From NCBI RefSeq assembly GCF_038404985.1, contig NZ_JBBKBA010000001.1, positions 186,001-250,000 on the forward strand: 64,000 nt of DNA, read 5' to 3'. The translations under genes and the position numbers were made by a program. Shown piece by piece: positions 1 through 14,629 of the stretch. This stretch comes from Ferrovibrio sp. MS7. Lineage in GTDB: Bacteria > Pseudomonadota > Alphaproteobacteria > Ferrovibrionales > Ferrovibrionaceae. Below the pieces are notes generated by a model. The model did no database searches. It was not told where the DNA came from and saw only the letters and a program-made list of their open reading frames with translations. Each line of letters opens with the position of its first letter. Within the stretch, counting starts at the first letter, position 1.

Positions 1-264
1 GATGGCGATATGCAACGTCACCAGCAGTTCGCTGAAGTAGTAGCGCCACTCGCGGAAATCCGGCGGGAAGAAGTCGCGCGCGAAGGTGGCCATGTTGCCG
101 GCATCGCGGATAAGGTTGCCGGGATTTATCTCGGCCCCCTGGTAGGACCAGACCAATACAGCGCAGGCCAGGGCATAGCCGAATAGTTTCAGCAGCGAGG
201 ACTTTAGACCCTGCTTCGGCGGGTGGATCGGATAGTCGGTCTGGATCGCGGCGGTCTGGGACAT
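1..264 (-). CDS. phnE: Phosphonate ABC transporter permease PhnE, N-terminal part (cut by window edge)
   Basis: Only the first 88 codons lie in the window; the rest continues past position 1. The visible part has a short cytoplasmic N-terminus rich in Pro/Lys and one hydrophobic segment at about residues 24-42, followed by a periplasmic-looking stretch, as in PhnE permeases. The family forms the membrane channel of the PhnCDE phosphonate importer. It lies 61 nt downstream of phnD, separated by a strong hairpin, and is the third gene of the phnCDE operon. The start ATG at 264 is the first in frame after the phnD stop. Assignment rests largely on gene order, so it is firm for the operon but the protein itself is mostly unseen. 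Confidence 0.8.
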   Translation of the reverse strand, partial: MSQTAAIQTDYPIHPPKQGLKSSLLKLFGYALACAVLVWSYQGAEINPGNLIRDAGNMATFARDFFPPDFREWRYYFSELLVTLHIAI

Positions 265-283
265 CGGCAGCCTCACATAGAGA

Positions 284-314
284 AACGCCGGGGAGGTTTT
301 CCCACCCCGGCGTT
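284..314 (-). promoter_or_regulatory. Intercistronic stem-loop between phnD and phnE
   Basis: A perfect 10-bp inverted repeat, AACGCCGGGG at 284-293 and CCCCGGCGTT at 305-314, encloses an 11-base loop. It sits immediately after the phnD stop and 20 nt before the phnE start, with no U-tract, so it is more likely an mRNA-stabilising or attenuating hairpin than a full terminator. Such hairpins commonly keep binding-protein transcript in excess over permease transcript in ABC operons; that role is inferred here. Confidence 0.75.
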
Positions 315-325
315 CATTGCTTGCT

Positions 326-1309
326 TCAAGAACCAAGCTGCTTGTTCAGTTCGGCGAGCTTGGCGTCGATCTCAGCCAGCTTCTTGGCCTTTTCGTCGGC
401 AGCCATGTTGGCATCGCCTTCCAGCTTTATCTTGTCGCGGAACAGGCCGAGCTGGCGGATCGGCAGCAGCTGCTTGTTGGAGGATTCCTTGAACGGACCC
501 CATTGCAGGTCGGCAAGCACCTTCTTCTCGCGCTCATCCTTGGTGCCATAAGTCATGAAGAACGTCTTCACGGCCTTCTTGGTCTCTTCCGGCAGATCCT
601 TGCGCCATACGATCGGGTCGGAAGCGATCAGCGGCGACTTCCAGATCGCCTTCACCTCCTTGGCCTTCTCGGGCATGGTCTTCTGCAGACGCTCGAGATT
701 CTCGGTGTTGTTGGTGGCGATATCGACCTGCTTGTTGGCAACGGCGAGCGCGTTGGTCTCGTGATTGGCCGCCACAACGCGGGTGAAATGCTTGCGGATA
801 TCGATATTGTTCTGGCCCCAGGCGTAGTAGCTCGGCACCAGGAAGCCCGAGGTCGAGTTCGGATCGCCGTTGCCGAAAGTGTATTTGCCCGGCGCCTTGA
901 CGATATCTTCCAGCGAATTGATCGGGCTGTCCTTGTGCACCAGCAGCAGCGACCAGTAGCCCGGCGCGCCATCCTTGGAGGTGGTCTGCACGAACACTTC
1001 GCCATCGGCGCGATCCACCGCCTGCATAGCAGAGGCATTGCCGTACCAGGCAATCTGCACCTTGTTGAAGCGCATGCCTTCAATCACGCCGGCATAGTCG
1101 GGGGCAAAGAAGGCATTGATCTTCATGCCGGTCTGCTTCTGCATGTCGGCGAGGAACGGCTCCCAGATGGTCTTCAGGTTGGCGCTCGATTCGGTCGAGA
1201 TGATGCCGAAGTTGAGTTCCTTCAGACCCTGGGCCTGAGCCGGGGCAGTGCCGGCGAAGCCGAGCAGCAGCAGCGGTAGTGTTGCCTTAAGCAAGTTGCG
1301 GCGAAGCAT
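326..1309 (-). CDS. phnD: Phosphonate ABC transporter substrate-binding protein PhnD
   Basis: A 327-residue periplasmic binding protein that captures phosphonates for PhnC/PhnE. Residues 1-26 form a signal peptide with an RR near the start, a hydrophobic core and an AQA cleavage site. The mature part has the PhnD-family pattern: a pocket region near residues 62-95 (FAPDYAGVIEGMR, then QIAWYGNASA), a GDPNSTSG segment near residues 147-154 that matches the phosphate/phosphonate-contacting Ser-Thr-Ser loop, and a Lys-rich C-terminus. The length is normal for the family. GGGAG lies 9 nt before the ATG. The gene is 41 nt downstream of phnC and ahead of phnE in the same operon. Confidence 0.93.
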   Translation of the reverse strand: MLRRNLLKATLPLLLLGFAGTAPAQAQGLKELNFGIISTESSANLKTIWEPFLADMQKQTGMKINAFFAPDYAGVIEGMRFNKVQIAWYGNASAMQAVDRADGEVFVQTTSKDGAPGYWSLLLVHKDSPINSLEDIVKAPGKYTFGNGDPNSTSGFLVPSYYAWGQNNIDIRKHFTRVVAANHETNALAVANKQVDIATNNTENLERLQKTMPEKAKEVKAIWKSPLIASDPIVWRKDLPEETKKAVKTFFMTYGTKDEREKKVLADLQWGPFKESSNKQLLPIRQLGLFRDKIKLEGDANMAADEKAKKLAEIDAKLAELNKQLGS

Positions 1310-1350
1310 GGATAATTCTCCCGTTGGCTACGAAGTAATCGTGAAAAGGA

Positions 1351-2205
1351 TCAGGCGATGGCCGCCTGCAGCGGACGTGCCCGGTATTCGGCGGCCTTAG
1401 GCTCCTCGACTTCTGGCGTGCCGAGCGAGCCGAAATCGAGGTCGCTGTTATCGCCATAGAGGTCGCGCAGCAATGGCGCGGTGACGCTGGCGGCCGGGCC
1501 GTCATACATCACGCGGCCATCGCGCAGCGCGACGACACGGCGGCAGTATTTCAGCGCGAAATCCACCTGATGCAGCGACACCACGACGGTGACCCCATCG
1601 GTGCGGTTGATATCGGCCAGAGCCGCCATGACGCGGCGTGAGGATTCCGGATCCAGCGAGGCAATCGGCTCGTCGGCCAGAATGACAGCAGCTTTCTGCA
1701 CCAGGGCGCGGGCGATGGCGGCGCGCTGCTGCTGACCGCCGGAAAGGGTGGAAGCACGCTGGAAGGCGCATTGCGCGATACCGACGCGGGCCAGGGCCTG
1801 CACCGCATCGCGGCGCTGCTCGTCGGTGAACCAGCGGAGCAGGCTGCGCCACAGCGGCAGGCGGCCCAGATTGCCGGCCAGCACATTGGTGATCACCGAG
1901 AGCCGGCCAACCAGATTGAATTGCTGGAACACGAAGCCGATACCGGCACGGGTCTCACGGATGCCCCGGCCAAGCTTGCCGGCCTGCTGCACCATGCGGC
2001 CATTCACCGCCACCTGGGCCTGGGCATCGCGGTCGCCCTGCATCAGCCCGGCGACATGGCGGAGCAAGGTGGATTTGCCCGAACCGGAGGCCCCGATCAG
2101 GGCGACCATTTCGCCGGGCTGGATTACGAGATTGATCTTGTCGAGAGCGCGCTTGCCGGTGGCAAAGGTTTTCGATAGATGAACGATCTCGATTGCGGCA
2201 CGCAT
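1351..2205 (-). CDS. phnC: Phosphonate ABC transporter ATP-binding protein PhnC
   Basis: A 284-residue ATPase that powers the PhnCDE importer. Walker A (GASGSGKST) is at residues 38-46, the Q-loop reads FVFQQFNLV, the ABC signature is [15 protein letters not shown], Walker B is [11 protein letters not shown], and the switch His is in VSLHQVD. The frame stays open further upstream, but the ATG at 2205 has AGGAGA six bases before it and gives the canonical N-terminus, so I reject the longer version. It is the first gene of phnCDE and diverges from the DUF1045 gene across a 129-nt gap. Confidence 0.94.
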
Positions 2206-2334
2206 ACATGCTCTCCTGATGCCCTCGGGCCTGGATGGCTTAGCAACGCCACATGACACTTCCGTTGCGCTTCGGCGACGGGATGGTGAAATCGCCCCGG
2301 CGGCCGGTTCGCTGCCGAGTTACCCACAGGACGA
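2206..2334. promoter_or_regulatory. Divergent promoter region of phnC and the DUF1045 gene
   Basis: The 129-nt gap between two divergent genes must carry both promoters. Reading toward phnC there is a TGTCAT half-site near 2250-2256, which resembles half of a Pho box, but no convincing second half was found. No copy of the phnG/phnF palindrome was seen here. Confidence 0.4.
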
Positions 2335-3051
2335 TTGCAGCACTTGTCTATCCCCTCGCCGCGCTACGCCCTCTACGCCGCTCCCGCCACCAGCGATCCG
2401 TTGCATGGCTTTGCCGCCCGCTGGCTGGGGCATGATCCGGATTCGGGGGAAAGTTTCCGCGCCGGGGTGCCCGGCTTCGATGCCGCCTGGCTCGACCGCA
2501 TCACCGCCGAGCCGCGCCGCTATGGCTTCCACGCCACCTTGAAACCGCCCTTCCGGCTGGCCGAAGGCAAGTATGAGGCCGGACTGATCAGGGCCTTGGC
2601 CGCTTTCGCCAGCAGCTTCCCCAGCGTGCTGCTGCCGCGCCTGAGCGTAGAAGCCCTGGGCAGTTTCTTGGCGCTGCGCCCCTCGCAGCCCTGCCCTGGC
2701 GTGAACCGGCTGGCGGCTGATTGCGTGCGCCGCTTCGACAGCTTCCGGGCGCCCGCCAGCGCCGCCGAACTGGCCAAACGCCGCGCCATAGGTTTGACCG
2801 CGCGGCAGGAGGCATACCTCACCGAGTGGGGCTATCCTTACGTATTCGATGAATTCCGGCTGCATTTCACGCTGACCGGCAAGATCGAGGATGCCGGCAC
2901 ACGCCAGCGCCTGCTCGATTACCTTAAAAATGCCACAGCGCCGCTGCTCGGCGAGACGCTTATGCTTGGCGAGCTATGCCTGTTCCGCCAGGCATCAGAG
3001 CGGGAGAATTTTCGCGTGCTGCGCCGCTTCGCCCTGGCTCCTGCAGAGTAA
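2335..3051 (+). CDS. DUF1045 family protein, predicted 2H phosphoesterase of phosphonate metabolism
   Basis: A protein of about 235 residues of the DUF1045 family, which is known almost only from phosphonate operons. It carries two H-x-T motifs about 110 residues apart, HAT at residues 66-68 and HFT at 177-179 (counted from the TTG at 2335), the hallmark of the 2H phosphoesterase fold that opens cyclic phosphates. The cluster has no phnP in view, so I infer that this enzyme may open 5-phosphoribosyl 1,2-cyclic phosphate, the PhnP step. There is no ATG start: TTG at 2335 or TTG at 2344 are the options, with AGGA at 2328-2331. Its last 57 nt overlap the convergent phnN gene. Confidence 0.85.
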   Translation: MQHLSIPSPRYALYAAPATSDPLHGFAARWLGHDPDSGESFRAGVPGFDAAWLDRITAEPRRYGFHATLKPPFRLAEGKYEAGLIRALAAFASSFPSVLLPRLSVEALGSFLALRPSQPCPGVNRLAADCVRRFDSFRAPASAAELAKRRAIGLTARQEAYLTEWGYPYVFDEFRLHFTLTGKIEDAGTRQRLLDYLKNATAPLLGETLMLGELCLFRQASERENFRVLRRFALAPAE

Positions 3052-3612
3052 TCCTGGCTCCTGCAGAAGACTGACCAGCCGCGCCACGCCTTGCTCCAGC
3101 GGGCCATCATTGGCCAGAATCGCCACATCGTCGCCGGCCAGATCGAAGGCGGCAGCACGCGCCAAGCGCTGCACGATATCGGCGGGGCTTTCACGGCCAC
3201 GCGCTTCAAGCCGCTGACGCAGCACGTTGGGCGACGCGGTGACACCAATGATCAAGCGGTTGGCATAAAGCCGCCGCAGATCCGGCAGGATGGCGCGGGA
3301 AACATTCACCACCACCTGAATACCGGCACGGAGATCATCGTCTATCGAGCGCGGTATGCCGTAAAGCAGACCATGCGCCGCCCAGGACAGGGCGAAAGCA
3401 CCGCGCTCCTGCTCGGCCTGGAAGGCGGCTTCATCCAGCGCGATATAATCCTCGCCGCCGAGATCCGGCGCCCGCGTCACCACGCGGCGCGGGAAACGGA
3501 TGGTGGGATTCGTCCCTAATACCGCACGCGCACCAGCCAGCAGGCTGTCCTTGCCGACGCCGCTGGGGCCGACAACGACGACGAGACGGCCAGGATGGAA
3601 TGTACCGCCCAT
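2995..3612 (-). CDS. phnN: Ribose 1,5-bisphosphate phosphokinase PhnN
   Basis: A 205-residue guanylate-kinase-like enzyme that phosphorylates ribose 1,5-bisphosphate to PRPP, the last step that recycles the ribose of C-P lyase intermediates. A P-loop (GPSGVGKDS) lies at residues 15-23, followed by the family's TRAPD/GGEDY segment and a conserved ALSWAAHG motif near residue 75. The length is close to E. coli PhnN. The start codon abuts the stop of the upstream HD-domain gene (TGAATG), so the two are translationally coupled. It is the last gene of the phnG-to-phnN operon and converges on, and overlaps by 57 nt, the DUF1045 gene. Confidence 0.92.
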   Translation of the reverse strand: MGGTFHPGRLVVVVGPSGVGKDSLLAGARAVLGTNPTIRFPRRVVTRAPDLGGEDYIALDEAAFQAEQERGAFALSWAAHGLLYGIPRSIDDDLRAGIQVVVNVSRAILPDLRRLYANRLIIGVTASPNVLRQRLEARGRESPADIVQRLARAAAFDLAGDDVAILANDGPLEQGVARLVSLLQEPGLLCRSQGEAAQHAKILPL

Positions 3613-4167
3613 TCAGGCCGCGTTGCCGAGGGACCGGGCGATGAAGCTGCGGTAATAGGCGAGATCGGGGGTGCGCAGCTTCGGTGTTTTGGCGGCATCA
3701 TCCCAGCGCCGCAGCATCACGGCATCCTGGGCAAAAGGCTGGGCGATGAATGCCGCCGCTTCGGCCTCGCTGTAGATGCCGCCCTGCACTTCCAGGCTGG
3801 TCTTGGAGGCTTGCGACAGGCCGGCCCAGTAGTGCTGCTCGGCGCGGCAGAGATAGCGCTTGGCATTGACATGCAGCCGCACCGGCTCGGCCACCGCTGC
3901 CGGGAAATACTGCGCCAGCCAGTCGGCGGCGATGGTCTCATGCTGTGCATCGACACCCTGCTCGGCCAGGCCCTCGTCGCCCTGCCCGACCAGATGGCCG
4001 ATATCATGTAGCAGCGAGGCGGTGATCAGTTCCGGGCTGGAGCCGCTACGTTCGGCATGCATGGCGCATTGCAGGGCGTGTTCCAACTGGCTCACCGCCT
4101 CCATGCCGTAGCGCTCGGCGCCGGCCTTTTCCAGAAGTCCTACCACGGTGTCAAGAATATCCGGCAT
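3613..4167 (-). CDS. PhnZ-like HD-domain mixed-valent di-iron oxygenase (phosphonate-operon HDIG protein)
   Basis: A 184-residue HD-domain protein of the family called phosphonate degradation operons associated HDIG protein. It keeps the spacing of the PhnZ iron and substrate residues as I recall them: Tyr20 and Glu23, His30, His54-Asp55 with His58 (LLHDIGH), His76, His99, Lys103 and an Asp near 156. PhnZ splits the C-P bond of 2-amino-1-hydroxyethylphosphonate with O2; a relative, TmpB, acts on a trimethylated analogue. No PhnY-type hydroxylase gene is in the window, so the substrate is open. ATG at 4167 is chosen for the GGGAGGA five bases upstream; the longer frame overlaps phnM. It lies 11 nt after phnM. 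Confidence 0.85.
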   Translation of the reverse strand: MPDILDTVVGLLEKAGAERYGMEAVSQLEHALQCAMHAERSGSSPELITASLLHDIGHLVGQGDEGLAEQGVDAQHETIAADWLAQYFPAAVAEPVRLHVNAKRYLCRAEQHYWAGLSQASKTSLEVQGGIYSEAEAAAFIAQPFAQDAVMLRRWDDAAKTPKLRTPDLAYYRSFIARSLGNAA

Positions 4168-4178
4168 TGCATCCTCCC

Positions 4179-5324
4179 TCACATAACCCGCTGGCCCTCG
4201 CGCCACACGCTACGCACCACCGGGAACCCGTCCACGACGCTGACGCGGATCAGGTCGGCCCGGCGGCCCGGCTCGATGGCGCCACGATCTGTAAGGCCGA
4301 TGGACTCGGCCGGGTTGCGCGTTACCATCGCGACTGCCTGGGGTAGCGAAATATCGGGCACCTGGCTCGGCAGCAGGAAAGCGGAATGCAGCATGCTGCT
4401 GGGCACGTAATCCGAGGAGATGATATCCAGTTCACCGGCCTCGGCCAGCGATCTGGCTGAAATATTGCCGGAATGGGAGCCGCCGCGCACCACATTCGGG
4501 CCGCCCATCATCACCTTCATGCCATGCTGGCGGGACAGCGTGGCCGCGGTCTTGGTGGTGGGGAATTCCGCCACCACCATGCCATCGGCGGCGGCTTCGG
4601 CGACATGCTCGGCGGTGGCATCGTCATGGCTGGCGAGCGGCAGGCCCTTGGCACGGCAGAGATCGACCACGGCGCGGCGGTTGCGGACGCCATTGGCTTC
4701 GGCTGCCGCGATCTGGCTGGCCATGAATTCATCCATCTGGGCATCCGAGAGGCCGAACTTGCCTTGATAATATTCGCGATACTTGGCCGGATTGACGAAT
4801 TGCCGCTGGCCCGGGCTGTGATCCATCACCGAGATCAAACGCAGCCACGCCAATTCGGTCATGGGCTCGACCAGCGCCATCAAATCCTTGAAGGAAATTT
4901 CGCAGCGCAGATGCAGCAGATGCTCGGCCCGCAGCATTCCGGCCTGCTGCGCCCCGTCGATGGCCTGGATCATCTCGCGCAGCATTTCCATACGCACAGC
5001 ACCTTCGCGCACATCACCCACCGCTACCGCATCCAGCACCGTGGTAATCCCGGCGGCCGTGACCTGGGCATCATGGCTCATCACCGCCAGGCGACCGGGC
5101 CAGCGCACCCCGGGGCGCGGGGCGAAATGCTTTTCCATATGGTCGGTATGCAGCTCCACCAGGCCCGGCAGCAGATAATCACCATCGAAATCAATGGCAT
5201 CGGCGGCGTTGCTGGCACCGGCATCGATGGCTTTGATGCGGCCCTCCGCCATGCTGAGGCAGCCCTGCTCGATCATCGCCTCGGGCGTGACCAGGCGGGC
5301 ATTGCGGATCGTGACGGCACTCAT
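4179..5324 (-). CDS. phnM: Alpha-D-ribose 1-methylphosphonate 5-triphosphate diphosphatase PhnM
   Basis: A 381-residue amidohydrolase-fold enzyme that removes pyrophosphate from ribose-1-alkylphosphonate 5-triphosphate, giving the C-P lyase substrate. The metal site is visible as LHTDHMEKH at residues 58-66, with later ligands in SHDD (about 230) and in SSDYVPSSM near the C-terminus. The length matches the family. The start codon overlaps the phnL stop (ATGA), so they are translationally coupled. It sits in the canonical order phnJ-phnK-phnL-phnM. Confidence 0.95.
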   Translation of the reverse strand: MSAVTIRNARLVTPEAMIEQGCLSMAEGRIKAIDAGASNAADAIDFDGDYLLPGLVELHTDHMEKHFAPRPGVRWPGRLAVMSHDAQVTAAGITTVLDAVAVGDVREGAVRMEMLREMIQAIDGAQQAGMLRAEHLLHLRCEISFKDLMALVEPMTELAWLRLISVMDHSPGQRQFVNPAKYREYYQGKFGLSDAQMDEFMASQIAAAEANGVRNRRAVVDLCRAKGLPLASHDDATAEHVAEAAADGMVVAEFPTTKTAATLSRQHGMKVMMGGPNVVRGGSHSGNISARSLAEAGELDIISSDYVPSSMLHSAFLLPSQVPDISLPQAVAMVTRNPAESIGLTDRGAIEPGRRADLIRVSVVDGFPVVRSVWREGQRVM

Positions 5325-6016
5325 GCGGCGGCTCCAAGGGCTTGCAAAGGTAACAGGCGGGTGGCGATGGCAGCCCGGGTCTCGTCGTCATGCACAATGG
5401 CGACGATGGCGGTGCCGCGTCGGCGCGCAGTTTCGATCAGATTTATGACAATGGTGCGATTGCCAGCATCAAGCGAGGCGGTTGGCTCATCCAGCAGCAG
5501 CATTGGATGATCGGCGCAGAACCCCCGCGCGATATTGATCCGCTGCTGTTCGCCGCCGGAGAAAGTGGCCGGCGGCAGGCTCCATAGCCGCTCCGGGATA
5601 TTGAGTTCGCTGAGCAGTGCGGCCGCCCGCTGCCGGGCAGCCTGCTCAGCCTCGCCGCGCGCCAGCAAGGGTTCGGCGACGATATCCAGGGTGGCGACGC
5701 GCGGGATGACGCGCAGGAACTGGGTGACATAGCCCAAGCTGCGGCGGCGGATATCGAGCAGCACACGCGGCTGGGCCTGGAGAATATCCACCAGCTCGCC
5801 TTCATGGCGCAGCAGAATACGGCCCTGCTGCGGCCTGTAATTGCCATAGATCGAACGCAGCAAAGTGGATTTGCCGGCGCCCGAGGGGCCATGCAGCACC
5901 ACGCATTCGCCGGCCTGTACGCTCATGCTGGTATGGCGCAGCACCGGCAGCGAAATGCCGCCGCGCAGATGCAGGGTGAAGGTCTTGCTCACATCCTCGA
6001 CGCGAATCATGTCCAT
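5321..6016 (-). CDS. phnL: C-P lyase system protein PhnL (ABC-type ATPase)
   Basis: A 231-residue ABC-family ATPase of the C-P lyase assembly, not a transporter subunit. Walker A is GPSGAGKST near residues 44-52, the signature reads FSGGEQQRINIARGF, Walker B is LLLDEPTASLD, and the switch region is AIVHDDETR. The usual switch His is kept. PhnL functions with PhnG, PhnH and PhnI in joining ATP and phosphonate, and PhnK/PhnL bind the core complex in E. coli. Overlapping start/stop with phnM and a 7-nt gap to phnK place it in the middle of the operon. Confidence 0.94.
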   Translation of the reverse strand: MDMIRVEDVSKTFTLHLRGGISLPVLRHTSMSVQAGECVVLHGPSGAGKSTLLRSIYGNYRPQQGRILLRHEGELVDILQAQPRVLLDIRRRSLGYVTQFLRVIPRVATLDIVAEPLLARGEAEQAARQRAAALLSELNIPERLWSLPPATFSGGEQQRINIARGFCADHPMLLLDEPTASLDAGNRTIVINLIETARRRGTAIVAIVHDDETRAAIATRLLPLQALGAAA

Positions 6017-6023
6017 GGGGGCC

Positions 6024-6806
6024 TCACACGCTCAAGACCGAGGAGACCAGCAACTGCGTGTAGGCATGCTGCGGATCGTCGAGCAATTGGTCGGTAAGGC
6101 CGGCCTCCACCACCTCGCCGCGCCGCATCACCATCAGGCGATGCGCCAGCAGGCGGGCAACGCCAAGGTCATGGGTAACGACAATCACCGCGACATTATG
6201 TTCCTGCACCAGGCGGCGCAGCAGGTCTAGCAGGCGCGCCTGCACCGAGACGTCGAGGCCGCCGGTCGGCTCGTCCATCAGCACGATGCGTGGCCGCGTC
6301 ACCAGGTTGCGGGCGATCTGCAGGCGCTGCTGCATGCCACCGGAGAAACGGCGCGGCTGGTCGTCAATACGCTCGGCGGGTATCTCCACGGCATTCAGCC
6401 AGTGCAAGGCGGTGCCGCGCAATTCGCCATAATGCTTATTCCCCAGCGCCATCAGGCGTTCGCCGATATTGGCGCCGGCTGAAAAGGTCATGCGTAGGCC
6501 ATCGCGGGCATGTTGCTGCACGAAGCCCCATTCGGTGCGCATCAACTGACGGCGCCGCGCCTCATTGGCGGTGAGCAGATCAACGATCTCATCATTGCCG
6601 GCCCGGTAAAGCACCCGGCCGGCATCGGCGGCGATGCGCCCGGCCAGGATATTCAGGAGCGTCGACTTGCCCGAGCCGGATTCGCCGACAATGCCGAGCA
6701 CCTCGCCCGGCCACAGCTCGAACGAGATGTCGCGGCAGGCCGCCTGGCGACCGAAGCTCTTATGCAATTCCTCGACGCTGAGCAGCGGCATTTCCTGCGC
6801 AATCAT
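6024..6806 (-). CDS. phnK: C-P lyase system protein PhnK (ABC-type ATPase)
   Basis: A 260-residue ABC-family ATPase that binds the PhnGHIJ core complex in E. coli. Walker A is GESGSGKST at about residues 40-48, the Q-loop is FVQQHARDGLRM, the signature is FSGGMQQRLQIARNL, Walker B is VLMDEPTGGLD, and the switch His is in VVTHDLGVARLLA. The sequence resembles dipeptide-transporter ATPases, as is usual for PhnK, but the gene order leaves no doubt. Its start overlaps the phnJ stop by 4 nt. Confidence 0.94.
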   Translation of the reverse strand: MIAQEMPLLSVEELHKSFGRQAACRDISFELWPGEVLGIVGESGSGKSTLLNILAGRIAADAGRVLYRAGNDEIVDLLTANEARRRQLMRTEWGFVQQHARDGLRMTFSAGANIGERLMALGNKHYGELRGTALHWLNAVEIPAERIDDQPRRFSGGMQQRLQIARNLVTRPRIVLMDEPTGGLDVSVQARLLDLLRRLVQEHNVAVIVVTHDLGVARLLAHRLMVMRRGEVVEAGLTDQLLDDPQHAYTQLLVSSVLSV

Positions 6807-7714
6807 GCCGCAGTCTCCTTCTCATAAGGTGCAGCCAGCGCACCATGATGGCCGGCTTCGCGGCGGTCGTTGCAGTAATCCGTATCGGAGCAGACGAACA
6901 TGCGGCCGCCCTGGTCATCCAGGATCACTTCATCGAGGAAACTGTCGCTGGCGCCGCAGAGCGCGCAGGGCTGTACCCAGCGTTCGATGCTGAACGGGTG
7001 GTCGGCGAAATCCAGCGGCTGCACATCCGTGTAGGGCGGCAGGGCGTAGATGCGCTTTTCGCGACCGGCGCCGAAAAGCTGCAAGGCGGCATTCATATGC
7101 AGTTTCGGCGTATCGAATTTCGGAATCGGCGAGCAGCGCATCAGGTAGCGGCCATTCACCAGCACCGGGTAGTCATAGGATGTCGCGATATGGCCGTGCT
7201 GTGCGATATCCTCATAGAGCTTCACATGCATGACGCCATATTCCGACAGCGCATGCATCACGCGGGTTTCGGTCTCGCGTGGCTCCAGCCAGCGCAGCGG
7301 CTCCGGGATCGGCACCTGGTAAACCAGGATCTGGCCCTCACTGAGCGGCGTTTCCGGCACGCGGTGGCGGGTCTGGATCAGGGTGGCGGCACGGGTACGC
7401 TCGGTGGTGGAAACCCCGGTCATGCGCTGGAAGAAGCGGCGGATCGACACGGCATTGGTGGTGTCGTCGGCGCCCTGGTCGATCACCTTCAGCACATCGT
7501 CGCTGCCGATCACCGCCGCCGTCACCTGCATGCCGCCAGTACCCCAGCCGTAAGGCAAAGGCATTTCGCGGCTGCCGAACGGCACCTGATAGCCGGGAAT
7601 CGCCACCGCCTTGAGGATGGCGCGGCGCAGCATGCGCTTGGTCTGCTCGTCCAGGAAGGCGAAATTGTAACCGGCTAGCTGTGCACTGCCTTGATACGCT
7701 TGCGTCAAGTTCAT
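6803..7714 (-). CDS. phnJ: Alpha-D-ribose 1-methylphosphonate 5-phosphate C-P lyase PhnJ
   Basis: The 303-residue radical SAM enzyme that cleaves the carbon-phosphorus bond. The four functional cysteines are Cys250, Cys253, Cys275 and Cys281; their spacing (3, 22, 6) is the same as Cys241/244/266/272 of E. coli PhnJ, which hold the 4Fe-4S cluster and provide the thiyl radical residue. A GWGTGGMQ glycine segment lies near residues 56-63. No truncation is seen, so the enzyme should be active. Its start overlaps the phnI stop by 4 nt and its end overlaps phnK. Confidence 0.97.
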   Translation of the reverse strand: MNLTQAYQGSAQLAGYNFAFLDEQTKRMLRRAILKAVAIPGYQVPFGSREMPLPYGWGTGGMQVTAAVIGSDDVLKVIDQGADDTTNAVSIRRFFQRMTGVSTTERTRAATLIQTRHRVPETPLSEGQILVYQVPIPEPLRWLEPRETETRVMHALSEYGVMHVKLYEDIAQHGHIATSYDYPVLVNGRYLMRCSPIPKFDTPKLHMNAALQLFGAGREKRIYALPPYTDVQPLDFADHPFSIERWVQPCALCGASDSFLDEVILDDQGGRMFVCSDTDYCNDRREAGHHGALAAPYEKETAA

Positions 7715-8805
7715 TGCGCGGCCTCCGCCAGTTCGTTGCCGGCTTCCAGTTCGGCGCGCATGGTACGGATCAGGGTGAGTTCCGACTGGAAGTCGACATG
7801 GTGCGGCAGCTTGAGATGCTGCACGAAGCCGGAAGCCTCGACATTGTCGGCATGCGACAGCACGAATTCCTGATCCTGCGACGGCGCGGTGATATCCTCG
7901 CCCAATTCCTCGGCACGCAAGGACCGGTCAACCAGCGCCATGGCCATCGCCTTGCGCTCGGCGAAGCCGAAGCTCAAGCCATAGCCACGGGTGAATTTCG
8001 GCGGTTCGCTGCGCGAGCCACGGAACTGGTTTATCATCTGGCATTCGGTGACGGTGATATCGGCGATATCGACAGCGAAGCCGAGTTCGGGGATGTCAAT
8101 TTCCACAGTCACATCACCACTGCGGATTTCACCGACGAAAGGATGCGATTTGGCATAGCCACGCTGGGTGGAATAGCCAAGCGCCAGCAGATAGCCCTCA
8201 TCGCCGCGCGCCAGATTCTGCAATCGCAAGGCCCGGTCGGCCGGAAACATCAGCGGCTCGCGCGTCAGGTCGCCTACTGGCGCCTCATCGGCATCGGGTA
8301 GTTCCGGCTCGATCAGGCCTTCCGCGTTGAGCAGGTCGACCACCTGCGGCATCTGGCTTGGCAGGCTGCCTTGGCCGGCGAGCGGCGCCGCTTCCTGCTC
8401 GCCCATCAGCGCGAAATCCAGCAGACGATGGGTATAGTCGAAAGTCGGGCCGAGCAACTGTCCGCCCGGCAGGTCCTTGAAGGTGGAGGAGATGCGCCGC
8501 ATCACCCGCATGCACGTGGTATCGATCGGCCGCGTGACGCCGAGGCGCGGCAAAGTGGTGCGGTAGGCGCGCAGCAGGAAGATCGCCTCCACCTGGTCGC
8601 CGCGCGCCTGTTTCAACGCCAGGGCGGCAAGATCAGGATCATAAAGCGAGCCTTCGGTCATCACCCGGTCGACACCCAGGCTCATCTGCTCGCGGATCTG
8701 CTCGATGCCGATTTCCGGCACTGTGCGGTCGCCACGGCGTTCCTCTGCCAGCAGCTTGTGGGCATTCTCGATAGCGGCCTCGCCGCCTTTCACTGCCACA
8801 TACAT
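7711..8805 (-). CDS. phnI: Phosphonate C-P lyase core protein PhnI
   Basis: A 364-residue subunit of the PhnGHIJ core, the nucleosidase/transferase that displaces adenine from ATP with phosphonate. I start it at ATG 8805 (MYVAVKGGEAAIENAHKLL), the canonical PhnI N-terminus, preceded by GGGAG and placed 1 nt after the phnH stop; the open frame extends 46 codons further into phnH but is not needed. The C-terminal half contains the family's conserved REPLMFP and LGYSTQRGYAKSHPF segments. It sits between phnH and phnJ, both overlapping or abutting. Confidence 0.95.
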   Translation of the reverse strand: MYVAVKGGEAAIENAHKLLAEERRGDRTVPEIGIEQIREQMSLGVDRVMTEGSLYDPDLAALALKQARGDQVEAIFLLRAYRTTLPRLGVTRPIDTTCMRVMRRISSTFKDLPGGQLLGPTFDYTHRLLDFALMGEQEAAPLAGQGSLPSQMPQVVDLLNAEGLIEPELPDADEAPVGDLTREPLMFPADRALRLQNLARGDEGYLLALGYSTQRGYAKSHPFVGEIRSGDVTVEIDIPELGFAVDIADITVTECQMINQFRGSRSEPPKFTRGYGLSFGFAERKAMAMALVDRSLRAEELGEDITAPSQDQEFVLSHADNVEASGFVQHLKLPHHVDFQSELTLIRTMRAELEAGNELAEAAQ

Positions 8806-8806
8806 G

Positions 8807-9421
8807 TCAGGCTCCCTTGGTGCCGAGTTGAACCTGCGTGCTGCGCGGCAGGCCGAGGACGGCATCCGCCGCCACCAGATAGATATCGACGCCGCGCGGG
8901 AAGGCATCGCGCATCGCCGCGCGCTGGCGCCAGAAATCGTCACTTAGGCCGCAACCACTAACCGGCTGGCGCTCGCGGATGCCGGGGCCGGTCAACACCA
9001 GATCGGCGGCACCATCGAAGCCCTCGACGGCCAGCAACAGTGTGGCGCCGCGCTCGGGTGCCACATCGCTGCCCCAGCCAAGCTCTTCCAGAACCGGCAG
9101 CGCAACAGCCACGGCAATCGCAGCATCGCTGGCCTGGGCGGTGAGCGGCGCACCGGTATGGAAACGCAACCAGGTGGCGGTTTCCGCATCGTCGCAGCCC
9201 GGCCCGAGCCACACCGGGGTATCGAGATCGCAAAGCGTGAGTAAAGCTGCCGCCATGGCGGGCGTCAGGCCGGCGGGATGGCCGGCTTGCAGCGGCATGG
9301 GGATGATGCGGCCGGGATGGGCCAGGGCCTGCAGCAGATGGCGAAAGGCCTGTTGGCTCTGCTGCACCGGATCGTTGAAACCGGCAGCGGGCGTTGAGGG
9401 CACAAATGCATTCATGCTCAA
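8807..9421 (-). CDS. phnH: Phosphonate C-P lyase core protein PhnH
   Basis: A 204-residue core-complex subunit, slightly longer than the E. coli protein. It shows the PhnH features: an FRHLLQALAHPGRI segment near residues 26-39, a central LLTLCDLDTPVW motif and a C-terminal GVDIYLVA stretch. PhnH dimerises and is needed for the first step that joins phosphonate to ATP. The gene overlaps phnG by 4 nt and ends 1 nt before the phnI start, so translation of the three is coupled. Confidence 0.94.
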   Translation of the reverse strand: MSMNAFVPSTPAAGFNDPVQQSQQAFRHLLQALAHPGRIIPMPLQAGHPAGLTPAMAAALLTLCDLDTPVWLGPGCDDAETATWLRFHTGAPLTAQASDAAIAVAVALPVLEELGWGSDVAPERGATLLLAVEGFDGAADLVLTGPGIRERQPVSGCGLSDDFWRQRAAMRDAFPRGVDIYLVAADAVLGLPRSTQVQLGTKGA

Positions 9422-9909
9422 TCCTCCCCGCGTACCATGGTGAAGAAATCCACCTTGGTCGCCGCCACCTTGGCTTCACGCGCCGCCTGAGCCTGGTTCA
9501 ATTCGCTTTCCAGCGGCGCGAACAGGCTGGCTTCGAGGGCGGCGGCCATCGCGGCGCCCTGGCTCAAGGCATCGAACAGCGCCACCAGTTCCGCCTTGCG
9601 CTGATCCCGCCCTGGCACATAGCCGACGCCCATGACGCCGCTGGCCTCCAAGGCCACGACGCAGCGGCTGATGGTCATCTCGCCGAGATTGAAACGCTGC
9701 CCAACGCCGCCGGCACGGGCGCGCAGCATGGCAAGCCCGGTCTCCGGCTGCTTCAGCCGGCGGTAGCCCGGCTGCTGCGGCAAGGCGGCATAGACCTGTT
9801 CCAGTCGGCCGCGTTCGGCGCGCGCCAGCAGCCGCAGGCGGCGCTGGCGTGCGGCTATCGCCCCGTCGTTCGGGGAGTGCGGACTGGATTTTTGTGCGGC
9901 GGCGGACAT
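9418..9909 (-). CDS. phnG: Phosphonate C-P lyase core protein PhnG
   Basis: A 163-residue first gene of the C-P lyase operon. Conserved PhnG segments are visible: a RARAGGVGQRFNLGEMTISRC block near residues 85-105 and a GYVPGRDQRKAELVALFDAL block near 118-137. PhnG sits at the periphery of the PhnGHIJ core. The 15 nt upstream of its ATG lead directly into a 26-bp palindrome, the likely PhnF operator, so transcription of the whole operon is probably controlled here. Confidence 0.94.
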   Translation of the reverse strand: MSAAAQKSSPHSPNDGAIAARQRRLRLLARAERGRLEQVYAALPQQPGYRRLKQPETGLAMLRARAGGVGQRFNLGEMTISRCVVALEASGVMGVGYVPGRDQRKAELVALFDALSQGAAMAAALEASLFAPLESELNQAQAAREAKVAATKVDFFTMVRGED

Positions 9910-9924
9910 GTAGACCTCTTGCGC

Positions 9925-9950
9925 AGATGTCTAAATTCATCTAGACATCT
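9925..9950. promoter_or_regulatory. Perfect inverted repeat, likely PhnF operator
   Basis: AGATGTCTA (9925-9933), 8-base spacer, TAGACATCT (9942-9950): both arms are perfect. It lies in the 127-nt gap between divergent phnG and phnF. GntR/HutC-type regulators usually bind short palindromes with a central TA/AC pattern beside their own gene, so this is the natural PhnF site. Further TAGAC-like half-sites flank it (TAGAC at 9911-9915). Binding is inferred. Confidence 0.7.
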
Positions 9951-10036
9951 ATACGAATAAGCCGAGGCCGCACGCCAATCAAGCACGGTTTCAGCGAAGT
10001 TTTTATGACACCCAGAGGAATGGCTGAGCGGCAGCG

Positions 10037-10759
10037 ATGGTTGAACGCGGCAACGGCATGGCGGTGTGGCGGCAGATTGCCGCCGAAATGGAGCGCATGA
10101 TCCGGCGTGGCGATTATGCCCCCGGCGCGCAATTGCCGACCGAAAAGCACCTGGCGACGGAATTCGGCGTCAACCGCCATACCGTGCGGCAGGCGATGAA
10201 CCGGCTGGAAGAAACCGGGCTGGTGAGCATCGAGCAGGGCCGCGGCATGTTTGTCGCCGAGCGGGCGCTGGATTATGCACTCGGCGCCCGCACCCGCTTT
10301 ACCGAAAACCTGCGCACGCGCCAGAAACAGCCCTCGCGCGAACTGATCTTCGCTGAACAGATTGCGGCACCCGCCGATATCGCCCGCGCCATGGGCCTGC
10401 CGATTGGTGCCCGGCTATGGCAGCTGGAATTGCTGAACCGCGCCGATGACAAATGCATCAGTGTCAGCAGCCATTATGTGGCGCAGGAGCGTTTCCCGGA
10501 AATGCCGGAACTGTTCCGCCGCGCCGGCTCGATCACCGGCGCGCTGCAGGCCGGTGGCGTCACCGATTTCCGCCGTCGCTCAACCCGGGTGGCGGCGAAG
10601 CTGATCGCGTCGGGCGATGCGCGTTTGCTCGGCCTGCCGCGCACGCGGCCTATCCTGCTCAGCGAAACCGTGAACGTGGATGCCCAAGGCCGGGCAGTGG
10701 AATATGTCCGCTCGCGCTTTGCCGCCGATCATGTCGTGCTCACCATAGAGCACGAGTGA
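10037..10759 (+). CDS. phnF: GntR/HutC-family regulator PhnF
   Basis: A 240-residue repressor-type protein. Residues 9-75 form a GntR winged helix-turn-helix (LPTEKHLATEFGVNRHTVRQAMNRL), and the C-terminal two thirds form a UTRA/HutC effector domain ending in VEYVRSRFAADHVVLTIEH, the typical PhnF tail. PhnF proteins control phn operons in response to a phosphonate or a related ligand. It diverges from phnG with the 26-bp palindrome between them. The ATG at 10037 has a weak ribosome site; an ATG at 10058 is an alternative. It ends 3 nt from the convergent cysW stop. Confidence 0.9.
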   Translation: MVERGNGMAVWRQIAAEMERMIRRGDYAPGAQLPTEKHLATEFGVNRHTVRQAMNRLEETGLVSIEQGRGMFVAERALDYALGARTRFTENLRTRQKQPSRELIFAEQIAAPADIARAMGLPIGARLWQLELLNRADDKCISVSSHYVAQERFPEMPELFRRAGSITGALQAGGVTDFRRRSTRVAAKLIASGDARLLGLPRTRPILLSETVNVDAQGRAVEYVRSRFAADHVVLTIEHE

Positions 10760-10762
10760 TGC

Positions 10763-11596
10763 CTAGTGTGCGCGGGCGGTGCGGCTCTGCCGGTGTTCGA
10801 GAAACGCCTTGATCAGCAGAGTGAGCAGCGCGATCACGGTCAGCGTGGTGGCGGCGGCAAAGGCGCCGACGGCATTGTAATCGTGATACAGCAGCTCGAC
10901 CTGCAGCGGCAGCGTGTTGGTCTCGCCGCGCACATTGCCCGATACCACCGAGACAGCGCCGAATTCGCCAATCGCCCGCGCCGAGCAGAGCACGGCGCCA
11001 TAGAGCAGAGCCCAGCGGATGCTCGGCAAGGTGACGCGTCGGAAGGTCTGCCAGCCGGTGGCGCCGAGCGTGGCCGCTGCTTCTTCCGGCTCAGTGCCCT
11101 GGGCCTGCATCAGCGGGATCAATTCACGCGCCACGAACGGGCTGGTGACGAACAGCGTGACCAGGAAAATCGCCGGCAGCGCGAACATCAGACGGATGCC
11201 ATGATCTTCCAGGAAACCACCGAACAGCCCCTGCGCGCCATACAGCAGCAGATAGGTGACGCCGGCAACGATCGGTGAAATCGAGAACGGAATTTCCAGC
11301 AGGGTCAGCAGCAGCTTCTTGCCGGGGAATTCGAACTTGGCGATGGCCCAGGCTGCGGCGACGCCGAACAGGATATTCACCGGCACCACCACGATAGCGG
11401 TGAGGATGGTAAGCCCCATGGCATGCAGGGTTTCCGGCGCCTGGATACTGTGCAGATAGAAATCCCAGCCCTTGGAGAAAGCCTGCTCGAAAATCACCAC
11501 GATAGGCGCCAGGATGAAGCCGGCAGTGAGCAGTACGCCAATGCCGATCAGAAAGAGCGGCAGGCGGCCGAGTTGCGGTTTGCGGCGGTCGCTCAT
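10763..11596 (-). CDS. cysW: Sulfate/thiosulfate ABC transporter permease CysW
   Basis: A 277-residue inner-membrane permease with six predicted hydrophobic segments and the binding-protein-dependent transport loop (EEAAATLGATGWQTFRRVTLPSIRWAL split over residues 170-196). It pairs with CysT to form the sulfate channel. The conserved GEFGAVSVVSGN segment near residue 215 is typical of CysW. It lies 4 nt after cysT and is the last gene of the metY-cysA-sbp-cysT-cysW operon; its 3' end nearly touches the convergent phnF. Confidence 0.93.
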   Translation of the reverse strand: MSDRRKPQLGRLPLFLIGIGVLLTAGFILAPIVVIFEQAFSKGWDFYLHSIQAPETLHAMGLTILTAIVVVPVNILFGVAAAWAIAKFEFPGKKLLLTLLEIPFSISPIVAGVTYLLLYGAQGLFGGFLEDHGIRLMFALPAIFLVTLFVTSPFVARELIPLMQAQGTEPEEAAATLGATGWQTFRRVTLPSIRWALLYGAVLCSARAIGEFGAVSVVSGNVRGETNTLPLQVELLYHDYNAVGAFAAATTLTVIALLTLLIKAFLEHRQSRTARAH

Positions 11597-11600
11597 GATT

Positions 11601-12455
11601 TCAAGTCTTCTTCAGGGCGCGCATCTGCCAGGCTTGCAGCAGGTTGGCCAGCAGCAGCATGACAAAGGCGGTAAGCAGGATCACGGTGGCAATCGCCGCC
11701 GCTGCCGGATAATCGAATTCTTCCAGACGGATGAAGATCAGCAAGGCAGCGATTTCGGTCTTCATCGGCAGGTTGCCGGCAATAAAGATAATGGCGCCGA
11801 ATTCGCCCAGCGAACGGGCGAAAGCAAGCATGCAGCCGGTGAGATAGGCCGGCATGATCGCCGGCAGGATCACCTTGCGGAAAATCGTGAAGGGATAGGC
11901 GCCGAGCGTGCGCGCCGCTTCCTCGGCTTCCGGTGCCAGGTCTTCCAGCACCGGCTGCAGCGTGCGCACCACGAAAGGTGCCGAGGTGAAGGCCATGGCG
12001 ATGGCAACGCCGGTGATGGTGTAGACCACCTTGATGCCGGCCGGCTCCAGCACGCTGCCGAACCAGCCATTCTTGGCATAAAGCGCGGTGAGCGCGATGC
12101 CGGCGACAGCGGTGGGCAGCGCAAAGGGAATATCCATCAGCGCATCCAGCAGGCGACGGCCGGGAAATTCGTAGCGTACCAGAATCCAGGCCATCAGCAG
12201 GCCATAGATGGCATTGAAGGCCGTGGCCAGGACGGCGGAGCCGAGCGTGAGCTGGAACGAGGCCAGCGCGCGGGGCGAGCTGACGAGCTGCAGGAATCGC
12301 GCCGGACCGATCTCGGCGGATTTCAGCAGCAACGCCGCCAGCGGCAGCAGCACGATGACGGTGAGATAGAGCAGCGTGGCGCCGAGCGTGAGCCCGAAAC
12401 CAGGAAGCACATGCCGGGCCTTCGGCGGCCCGGCATGGCGGATGGCAAGTGACAT
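11601..12455 (-). CDS. cysT: Sulfate ABC transporter permease CysT (CysU)
   Basis: A 284-residue permease with six hydrophobic segments. The family hallmarks are GFGLTLGATLLYL near residue 20, a DIPFALPTAVAGIAL motif and the EEAARTLGAYPFTIFRKVILP ABC-contact loop, followed by SLGEFGAIIFIAGN. Together with CysW it makes the membrane part of the sulfate importer. It follows the binding-protein gene by 43 nt, a gap that contains a GC-rich hairpin, and precedes cysW by 4 nt. Confidence 0.94.
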   Translation of the reverse strand: MSLAIRHAGPPKARHVLPGFGLTLGATLLYLTVIVLLPLAALLLKSAEIGPARFLQLVSSPRALASFQLTLGSAVLATAFNAIYGLLMAWILVRYEFPGRRLLDALMDIPFALPTAVAGIALTALYAKNGWFGSVLEPAGIKVVYTITGVAIAMAFTSAPFVVRTLQPVLEDLAPEAEEAARTLGAYPFTIFRKVILPAIMPAYLTGCMLAFARSLGEFGAIIFIAGNLPMKTEIAALLIFIRLEEFDYPAAAAIATVILLTAFVMLLLANLLQAWQMRALKKT

Positions 12456-12469
12456 GTCTAAACCCGGCG

Positions 12470-12482
12470 CGGGGCGGCCCCG
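12470..12482 (-). promoter_or_regulatory. Small GC-rich hairpin between sbp and cysT
   Basis: CGGGG (12470-12474) and CCCCG (12478-12482) can pair around a 3-base loop in the 43-nt gap after the sulfate-binding protein gene. No U-tract follows. It may protect the sbp transcript end, as proposed for the phnD-phnE hairpin, but the stem is short. Confidence 0.35.
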
Positions 12483-12498
12483 GCTTTAAGATTAACGC

Positions 12499-13497
12499 TT
12501 AGCGGTTGACGAAGACCTGATCGAGGATGCCGCCTTCGGCGAAATGCACCTTGTTGGCCTGTTCCCAACCGCCGAACACGGCTTCGATGGTGACGAGGCG
12601 CAGGGTGGGGAATTGCGCCTTGTACTTCTCGAGCACCTTAGGATGATGCACGCGGTTATAGTTCTGCGCCAGGATTTCCTGGCCGGCTTCGCTGTAGAGG
12701 AAATCCAGGTACGCCTTGGCCACCGCCTGGGTGCCCTTGCGCTCGGCCACCTTGTCGACCACGGCCACCGGGAATTCGGCGAGCAGGCTGACCGAGGGAG
12801 TCACCAGCTCGAAGCCCTTGTCGCCATATTCGCGCTTGATGCCGTTGGTCTCGGCCTCGAAAGTGATCAGCACATCGCCGATTTCGCGGTCGACGAAGGT
12901 AGTGGTGGAGCCGCGGCCGCCGGTATCGAACACCGGCACATTGCCAAGCAGGGTCTTCACGAAGGCATTCGCCTTCGCCACATCGCCCTTGTTCTGCTCC
13001 AGCGCGAAGGCATAGGCGGCAAGATATGTGTAGCGCGCGTTGCCCGAGGTCTTCGGGTTCGGGAACACCGACTGCACGTCCTTGCGCACCAGGTCGGACC
13101 AGTCCTTCACGTTCTTCGGGTTGCCTTTGCGCACCAGGAAGGCCGGCAGCGAGTAATAAGGCGAAGCATTGTTCGGGAACCGCTTCTGCCAGTCGGCGGC
13201 CACCAGCTTGCCACGGTCATGCAGGATCTGCACGTCCAGTACCTGATTGAAGGTGACGACGTCGGCCTGCAGACCTTCCAGGATCGAGCGGGCCTGGCGC
13301 GAGGTGCCGGCGTGGCTCTGCTTGATCTCGACCACCTGGCCGGTCTTGGCCTTGTAGTCGGCTGCGAAGACCGGGTTGATCTGGGCGAACAGCTCGCGTG
13401 CGATATCGTAAGAGACGTTGAGCAATTCGACCGTCTGGGCCTGGGCACCGCCGGACAGCAGGGCAAGCACGGCAGCGACGGAGAGAAGACGCTTCAT
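12499..13497 (-). CDS. sbp: Sulfate-binding periplasmic protein Sbp
   Basis: A 332-residue periplasmic sulfate-binding protein. Residues 1-20 are a signal peptide ending AQA. The mature protein shows the family blocks: YDIARELFAQINPVF near the start, a QSHAGTSRQAR loop and the NPKTSGNARYTYL sulfate-site segment, plus EAVFGGWEQANKVHFAEGG at the C-terminus. I start at ATG 13497; the frame is open upstream through the end of cysA but that part is an out-of-frame overlap without homology. Sbp and CysP are close relatives, so thiosulfate is possible. It is preceded by cysA (25 nt). Confidence 0.93.
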   Translation of the reverse strand: MKRLLSVAAVLALLSGGAQAQTVELLNVSYDIARELFAQINPVFAADYKAKTGQVVEIKQSHAGTSRQARSILEGLQADVVTFNQVLDVQILHDRGKLVAADWQKRFPNNASPYYSLPAFLVRKGNPKNVKDWSDLVRKDVQSVFPNPKTSGNARYTYLAAYAFALEQNKGDVAKANAFVKTLLGNVPVFDTGGRGSTTTFVDREIGDVLITFEAETNGIKREYGDKGFELVTPSVSLLAEFPVAVVDKVAERKGTQAVAKAYLDFLYSEAGQEILAQNYNRVHHPKVLEKYKAQFPTLRLVTIEAVFGGWEQANKVHFAEGGILDQVFVNR

Positions 13498-13522
13498 GGG
13501 AGGTAATCCTTTCTTCTGATAC

Positions 13523-14629
13523 TTACTCGCCCGCCGCGCCGCGCTGAGCGGCATAGGCGGCGGACTGATTGGCGGGATGCAGGGCGGGCGAAAAGACGCG
13601 GCCTTCGCGGATATGCACCCGCACCGCATCGCCCTGGCGCAGATTGCGCCGCCGCGCCTGTTCGCGCGGCAATTCGACTTCCAGATGCTTCGCCGCACCC
13701 GGCAGGGCCACGTCATAACGCAGCACCGGGCCGCTGGAGGTGACGGCCTGGATACGCGCCGGCGCATCGCTGGCGGGCTCAAGGTCGATCTCCTGCAGGC
13801 GAACGAAAAGCTGGATGGCACCATCGCCGGCGGCGATACGGTCGAGCGAAGCGGTCTCGGCACCGGCAACGACAACACGGCCATCATTGATCTCGGCGGC
13901 GATCTCGTTGACGCCGCCGAGGAAGCGGGCAACGAAGGGGCTGGCCGGCTGCTCGTAGATTTCATCCGGGGTGCCGACCTGCTCGATGCGGCCTTCGCCC
14001 ATCAGCACGATACGGTCGGCCAGTTCGAAGGCTTCTTCCTGGTCATGGGTGACGAAGATGGTGGTCATGCCGAGCTGGTCATGCAGTTCGCGCAGCCAGC
14101 GCCGCAGGTCCTTGCGCACCTTGGCATCCAGCGCGCCGAACGGCTCGTCCAGCAGCAGCATCTTCGGCCGGATGGCGAGCGCGCGGGCAAGCGCCACGCG
14201 CTGACGCTGGCCGCCGGAAAGCTGCGCCGGGAAACGGTCGCCGAGCGCCCCGATCTGCACCAGGCCGAGCAATTCCTCGACCCGGGCCTTGATCTCGTCC
14301 TTGCCTGGGCGTTCGCCACGCGGCAGCACATCGAGGCCGAAGGCGATATTGTCACGCACCCGCATATGCTGGAACAACGCGTAGTTCTGAAACACGAAAC
14401 CGACATGGCGCTGCTGCGCGGTCAGCGACAGCCAGTCGGCACCATCCACATCCACGTTGCCAGCATCAGGCCATTCCAGGCCGGCCAGGATACGCAGCAG
14501 GGTGGTTTTGCCCGAACCCGAGGCACCGAGCAGCGCGATCAATTCGCCATCCTTGATGTCGAGATCGATGCCGCGCAGCACCGGCGTGGCGCCGAAGCTC
14601 TTGGTGATGCCGTGAATGCCGATAGCCAT
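13523..14629 (-). CDS. cysA: Sulfate/thiosulfate ABC transporter ATPase CysA
   Basis: A 368-residue ATPase. Walker A is GASGSGKTT near residues 34-42, the Q-loop is FVFQNYALFQHM, the signature is LSGGQRQRVALARAL, Walker B is LLLDEPFGALD and the switch His is in FVTHDQEEA. After the nucleotide-binding domain (about 1-235) there is the TOBE-type C-terminal region found in CysA. It energises CysT/CysW. It lies 5 nt downstream of metY and 25 nt upstream of sbp, so the importer is co-transcribed with the sulfhydrylase gene. Confidence 0.94.
   Translation of the reverse strand: MAIGIHGITKSFGATPVLRGIDLDIKDGELIALLGASGSGKTTLLRILAGLEWPDAGNVDVDGADWLSLTAQQRHVGFVFQNYALFQHMRVRDNIAFGLDVLPRGERPGKDEIKARVEELLGLVQIGALGDRFPAQLSGGQRQRVALARALAIRPKMLLLDEPFGALDAKVRKDLRRWLRELHDQLGMTTIFVTHDQEEAFELADRIVLMGEGRIEQVGTPDEIYEQPASPFVARFLGGVNEIAAEINDGRVVVAGAETASLDRIAAGDGAIQLFVRLQEIDLEPASDAPARIQAVTSSGPVLRYDVALPGAAKHLEVELPREQARRRNLRQGDAVRVHIREGRVFSPALHPANQSAAYAAQRGAAGE

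Follow-up and report, generated by a model that had tools for sequence, protein, structure and literature searches.

Among described enzymes, the closest counterparts of the protein considered here are PhnZ and TmpB. PhnZ acts after PhnY*, and TmpB has TmpA as its partner. In both enzymes a glutamate of the lid touches the amino group of the substrate, as set out in the accessible part of PMC8177086. The Phn-HD family (TIGR03276) also includes PhnHD of Achromobacter, which is found beside phosphonate genes without a PhnY* partner, and for which (R)-2-amino-1-hydroxyethylphosphonate (HAEP) was modelled as the likeliest ligand, with caution urged; the accessible part of the same source describes some pseudomonads that carry the family and have no PhnY* (PMC11203657). 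According to the accessible part of PMC8154272, phnZ occurs without its partner in 15 of 1,186 phnWX clusters and in 24 of 75 phnWAY clusters, where it has been interpreted as a HAEP branch. Alphaproteobacteria have been described to possess a racemase that acts on the opposite HAEP enantiomer, and S-HAEP has been proposed to be commoner than appreciated (accessible part of PMC12366243).

In this study we analysed a 64,000-nucleotide stretch of the genome of Ferrovibrio sp. MS7 (hereafter the window, to which all plain coordinates refer), in which a gene of this family, phnHD, lies within a C-P lyase operon. Its product has the same diiron and substrate residues as Achromobacter PhnHD and likewise no PhnY* was detected beside the gene; however, the Achromobacter gene adjoins phosphonatase genes, whereas phnHD adjoins those of C-P lyase (PMC11203657, accessible part). 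The phnZ genes of the phnWX and phnWAY clusters are similarly PhnZ-type genes added to another phosphonate route, thus widening its range, but the main route there is hydrolytic (PMC8154272, accessible part) and at the window locus it is the radical C-P lyase. Our literature search found no activity assigned to a C-P-lyase-linked Phn-HD protein, and the primary papers on PhnZ and TmpB may mention this context.

Results

The C-P lyase operon around phnHD

The genes on the minus strand run in the order phnG (9418..9909; TIGR03293, 161.2 bits), phnH (8807..9421; TIGR03292, 176 bits), phnI (7711..8943), phnJ (6803..7714), phnK (6024..6806; TIGR02323, 375.7 bits), phnL (5321..6016; TIGR02324, 335.7 bits), phnM (4179..5324; TIGR02318, 491.8 bits), phnHD (3613..4167) and phnN (2995..3612; TIGR02322, 213.1 bits), followed by the importer genes phnC (ATPase, 1351..2259), phnD (binding protein, 326..1309) and phnE (permease, 1..336). 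The phnJ product, the radical C-P lyase subunit, matched PF06007 (G000:C1:192857-193672, E 6.5e-148) and no NCBIfam model. The open reading frame at 7711..8943, whose true start probably lies further in, is taken by us to be phnI from gene order. The importer genes were assigned by similarity group, the representatives for phnC and phnD matching TIGR02315 and TIGR03431 and the group of phnE matching TIGR01097; phnE crosses the window start and continues outside it as L003:17452-18336. At one end of the operon, the regulator gene phnF (10037..10759, plus strand; TIGR02325, 252.4 bits) is divergent. The C-P lyase setting recognised from the sequence by a sequence-only reading of this DNA was therefore confirmed from phnG to phnM, together with phnCDE and phnF, with phnI included as our own assignment.

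The start codon of phnHD (ATG at 4167, with GGAGGA immediately upstream) lies 11 bp from the phnM stop codon, and its stop codon, which ends at 3613, abuts the start codon of phnN. Scanning of window positions 1-11000 revealed no promoter-like site, and terminator-like sites were found there only at the level of shuffled sequence. Just past phnF, the minus strand of 10763-14629 holds what by the look of its translations is a sulfate-type ABC importer.

Between phnN and phnC lies a convergent gene on the plus strand (2335..3051), which overlaps the 3' end of phnN and encodes a DUF1045 protein (TIGR03223, 254.1 bits; PF06299) with a weak, below-cut-off Pfam match to LigT. No PhnP was found above the cut-off in the genome; the best match reached 62.8 bits against a cut-off of 272.25 and fitted the GPMC-system model better. 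Given this and the position of the gene, a role of DUF1045 as a cyclic-phosphate esterase fits, and the protein is likely to be a stand-in for PhnP. We infer that it corresponds to the phosphoesterase called 'RcsF' in the accessible parts of PMC10574752 and PMC3840354.

PhnHD has the active-site residues and the predicted fold of PhnZ

The phnHD product (184 aa) belongs to TIGR03276, curated as "phosphonate degradation HD-domain oxygenase", with 228.9 bits (cut-off 214.6, E 2.9e-68). The second-best curated model was NF052439 (GmPhnZ1, a hydroxymethylphosphonate dioxygenase) with 170.5 bits, and NF049941 (TmpB) gave 157.8 bits; both stayed below their cut-off of 300. In Pfam, the generic HD domain alone exceeded the cut-off. 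When the PDB was searched by sequence, TmpB (E 1.4e-31) and PhnZ (E 6.7e-31) were retrieved, the remaining matches being designed repeat proteins and one weak match. The protein is 39.9% identical to PhnZ (HAEP dioxygenase; 4MLM/4MLN) over 173 columns and 36.2% identical to TmpB (6NPA) over 177 columns, and its active-site letters are the same as in both. The alignment bore out every iron and substrate residue that the sequence-only reading had named, i.e., Tyr20, Glu23, His30, His54-Asp55, His58, His76, His99 and Lys103, each of which has the same letter in PhnZ (4MLM) and TmpB (6NPA); that list was correct and lacked Arg153 and Asp156, which, like Ser121 and Gln128, are also identical in the two enzymes. 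Thus, the protein carries the H...HD...H...H...D metal set (His30, His54-Asp55, His76, His99, Asp156) and the YxxE lid (Tyr20-Gly-Met-Glu23).

An AlphaFold2 model built from 15 sequences (pLDDT 89.1, pTM 0.87) was superposed on HAEP-bound PhnZ (4mln_A) with TM scores of 0.88/0.89 and an rmsd of 1.8; in a second comparison with HAEP-bound PhnZ the Z score was 26.3 (rmsd 1.7 over 177 residues). PhnZ was the closest fold, as TmpB gave a Z score of 25.2, myo-inositol oxygenase 10.9 and other HD proteins at most 9.3. The residues together with the modelled fold make the assignment of the phnHD product to the PhnZ-type chemistry class well supported. They also speak, indirectly, against the first refuting outcome that the sequence-only reading had named, a structure model without di-iron geometry.

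A partner hydroxylase was sought in the neighbourhood and in the genome

The known partners of PhnZ and TmpB were not detected with phnHD. When one TmpA protein and the PhyH protein of this genome (P0002) served as tblastn queries, neither the window nor 14 related loci gave a match. No PhyH above the cut-off was located near phnHD, and TmpA had no match in the genome at E<=1e-20. PhnW was also missing above the cut-off in the genome (best 93 bits against 400.8). The absence of the hydroxylase, which had been read from the sequence, therefore holds in the neighbourhood, and genome-wide within the reach of the TmpA, PhyH and TauD searches. The search for a PhnY or TmpA homolog elsewhere, which the same reading had suggested, thus gave no TmpA at that threshold and one unlinked PhyH protein.

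The latter, P0002, is the only PhyH protein in the genome and is encoded on contig 4. In its region (L004:9537-13902) the PhyH-family oxygenase gene has as neighbours a sulfonate-type importer and what looks like a GntR-type regulator. The nearest solved structure is MysH, and no phosphonate model is matched. At E<=1e-10 P0002 has no match in another genome of the genus (G171) and a 29% match in G249; both of these genomes carry the HD gene. It was matched in 10 of the 20 genomes with a C-P-lyase-linked HD copy (own genome included), with up to 56% identity outside its own genome, whereas the bare PhyH count over these genomes is uninformative, as all 20 have at least one. We judged P0002 unlikely to be a hidden PhnY in view of the lack of a phosphonate-model match, MysH as its nearest solved structure, the importer beside it and its missing or distant match in these two genomes with the HD gene. 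The genome also has seven TauD matches, and the TauD proteins were rejected as TmpA because the better of the two that were scanned reached 39.3 bits against the TmpA cut-off of 400 and the genome search for TmpA was empty at E<=1e-20.

Phn-HD genes recur in C-P lyase loci of Alphaproteobacteria

In a sample of 289 alphaproteobacterial genomes (TIGR03276 threshold E<=1e-15), HD was found in 73 and PhnJ in 53. They occurred together in 44 genomes (odds ratio 34.9, p 1.2e-23 by a Fisher test, which assumes an independence that the genomes do not have), and in 19 they lay within 5 kb on the same strand. No PhnJ match was obtained for 29 of the 73 HD genomes, and no HD match for 9 of the 53 PhnJ genomes. 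In a sample of 397 genomes from the phylum, HD was present in 45, PhnJ in 103 and both in 22, with an odds ratio of 3.2 (p 0.0005, Fisher, again treating as independent genomes that are not); HD and PhnJ were within 7 kb of each other in four of them (G000, G469, G474, G641), once on opposite strands. This implies that close linkage is frequent within some parts of the Alphaproteobacteria and that the wider sample rarely shows it.

The 85 match rows of the class sample represented 83 HD copies, since the fragments of G072:C270 were merged into one and a 59-bit fragment in G027 was left out. Each copy was taken with up to 9 kb on either side, genes were called and grouped, and the main groups were named. 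The names PhnG, H, L, M, N, J and DUF1045 are based on the window's own members; one further group is presumably PhnI. Twenty-four copies adjoin TmpA, 20 lie in C-P lyase clusters, one is near PhnW/PhnA and 38 are elsewhere. TmpA adjacency took precedence over C-P lyase in this labelling, and a check showed that no case was hidden by it. Four of the TmpA-adjacent copies also lie by PhnW and PhnA (L086, L088, L090, L099). The copy L062 was counted as C-P lyase by PhnM alone, its PhnJ being on another contig; two copies were counted as 'other': L100, which is accompanied by phn genes and lies at a distance of 11 kb from PhnJ, and L059, which has a PhnM match within 6 kb and PhnJ on another contig.

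HD directly follows phnM in 14 of the 20 C-P-lyase-linked copies, and in three (L092, L104, L107) it lies between phnC and phnF. DUF1045 is present in 12 of these loci, and PhnN in 10 by similarity group and 13 by tblastn, as the gene caller missed some genes. The closest loci (76-82% identical), which come from five Ferrovibrio MAGs and two alphaproteobacterial MAGs, have HD directly after phnM in all seven cases; HD is followed there by phnN in five, by the end of the locus in one, and in one no phnN match was found. The tblastn search detected TmpA in none of the 20 C-P-lyase loci and in 27 of the 83 HD loci overall. Three of the 20 genomes (G001, G128, G283) do possess an above-cut-off TmpA, and in all three it adjoins another HD copy, which is the best evidence that the C-P-lyase-linked copy is not the partner of TmpA; four further genomes have TmpA relatives below the cut-off only.

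Some loci differ in arrangement. HD directly precedes phnN in L059 (G243) and also in L089, from a genome with no PhnJ match (G260). Two other loci resemble the published Achromobacter clusters: in L119 HD is beside a HAD-family hydrolase gene with a phosphonate LysR-type regulator nearby, and in L102 it is beside an FAD oxidoreductase gene with an importer ATPase nearby.

Phylogeny and the lid residue

A quick tree was built from 97 rows, with L135, L140 and L065 (a duplicate of the window) left out. Its resolution was poor, 45 of 93 inner branches being open, and PhnZ stood on a long branch with unsure placement. The tree separated, with weak support (80), all 24 TmpA-adjacent copies and TmpB from 17 of the 19 C-P-lyase rows; the other two C-P-lyase rows lie on the TmpB side. 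TmpA adjacency required 4 changes (shuffled mean 20.7) and C-P lyase linkage 9 (shuffled mean 17.2). The split between the two contexts thus appears as a tendency and not as a clean clade.

In a sub-clade of 14 rows (support 92), the lid glutamate is replaced by Ser, Ala or Thr in 13 (L092, L104, L107, L116, L134, L126, L129, L077, L094, L115, L125, L083 and L102), whereas 83 of the 86 rows outside the sub-clade retain Glu, as does the window's protein (Glu23). The contact of this glutamate with the amino group of the substrate suggests that members of the lid-substituted sub-clade use another substrate, perhaps one without an amino group. The lid residue of the 20 C-P-lyase copies is Glu in 16, Ser in three and Gln in one; since four lack the glutamate, one substrate common to all C-P-lyase-linked copies is doubtful.

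Three divergent second HD copies from one genus (L136, L137 and L138 in G136, G026 and G217) have Gln in place of His58, Ala-Gly in place of Ser121/Gln128 and Cys in place of the last iron ligand, Asp156. Judged by these substitutions, they may be degenerate or have another function.

Discussion

We propose that phnHD encodes an accessory PhnZ-type mixed-valent diiron oxygenase that would cleave (R)-1-hydroxyphosphonates taken up from outside, with HAEP as the likeliest substrate and phosphate and glycine as products, and we give this reading a probability of roughly 0.6. PhnCDE would import a mixture of phosphonates, the plain ones being handled by C-P lyase and the ready-made (R)-1-hydroxyphosphonates by Phn-HD. 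Upon substrate binding, Tyr20 would depart from the second iron and Glu23 would hold the amino group; O2 would then bind, the C1 hydrogen would be abstracted, and cutting of the C-P bond would release phosphate and glycine. PhnY would be unnecessary because the substrate would enter already hydroxylated. A hydroxylated phosphonate from another source was one of two explanations offered by the sequence-only reading, and it is the likelier one, given that the enzyme is of the PhnZ type, that its operon is that of C-P lyase and that no partner hydroxylase was detected. Against the proposal we counted the rarity of close linkage in the phylum sample, the two C-P-lyase rows on the TmpB side of the tree, the four C-P-lyase copies without the lid glutamate, and the presence in the genome of one PhyH and seven TauD proteins.

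These last proteins are the basis of a different explanation, in which phnHD acts second in a two-step oxidation and the contig 4 PhyH or a TauD-family protein is the hydroxylase. PhnZ, GmPhnZ and TmpB all act downstream of such a hydroxylase (PMC10574752, accessible part), and half of the C-P-lyase genomes have a match to P0002. Nevertheless, the genome yielded no TmpA at E<=1e-20, P0002 matches no phosphonate model, has MysH as its nearest solved structure and stands beside a sulfonate-type importer, and two genomes that keep the HD gene have either no P0002 match or a distant one, which makes an elsewhere-encoded hydroxylase unlikely. The other explanation offered earlier, removal of an inhibitory intermediate, is one we consider improbable. 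A role in clearing a by-product of the C-P lyase pathway that is hydroxylated or inhibitory in some other way would agree with the location of phnHD between phnM and phnN, with the frequent placement of linked copies directly after phnM and with the strong co-occurrence of HD and PhnJ in the class; yet PhnJ was not matched in 29 of the 73 HD genomes, 24 of the 83 HD copies pair with TmpA, and nine PhnJ genomes gave no HD match. We know of no such by-product.

A phosphohydrolase function of phnHD within the C-P lyase pathway, such as replacing PhnP on the cyclic ribose phosphate, is very improbable, even though the genome lacks an above-cut-off PhnP and Pfam recognises only the generic HD domain. 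The YxxE lid together with the metal set is of the oxygenase type according to the accessible part of PMC8177086; the metal motif alone is described as not fully reliable in that of PMC11203657, but the modelled fold is also far nearer to PhnZ than to any hydrolase. In addition, the presence of DUF1045 in the operon and in most linked loci disfavours HD as a substitute for PhnP.

As a discovery the gene is ordinary: phnHD is a real gene of a curated family, it was read correctly, and its setting is found repeatedly in the class. The occurrence of a PhnZ-type gene in a C-P lyase operon, implied earlier to be novel, is real, but the family was already curated, members without a partner have been published, and the position is conserved in all seven closest loci. 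More tentatively, the partnerless, C-P-lyase-linked Phn-HD proteins might form a functional class of their own, each for a natural 1-hydroxyphosphonate not yet linked to an enzyme, the lid-Ser/Ala/Thr sub-clade being for a non-aminated one. If so, many alphaproteobacterial C-P lyase operons would be dual systems, radical and oxidative.

If the accessory oxygenase proposed here is right, many alphaproteobacteria use ready-made hydroxyphosphonates through O2 chemistry, in an operon usually taken as C-P lyase only. In metagenomes, AEP oxidation would in that case be overestimated when phnZ is counted as its marker, since a copy without its partner cannot use AEP as a starting point. Moreover, one gene and a small set of synthetic substrates would be enough to test what partnerless Phn-HD enzymes do.
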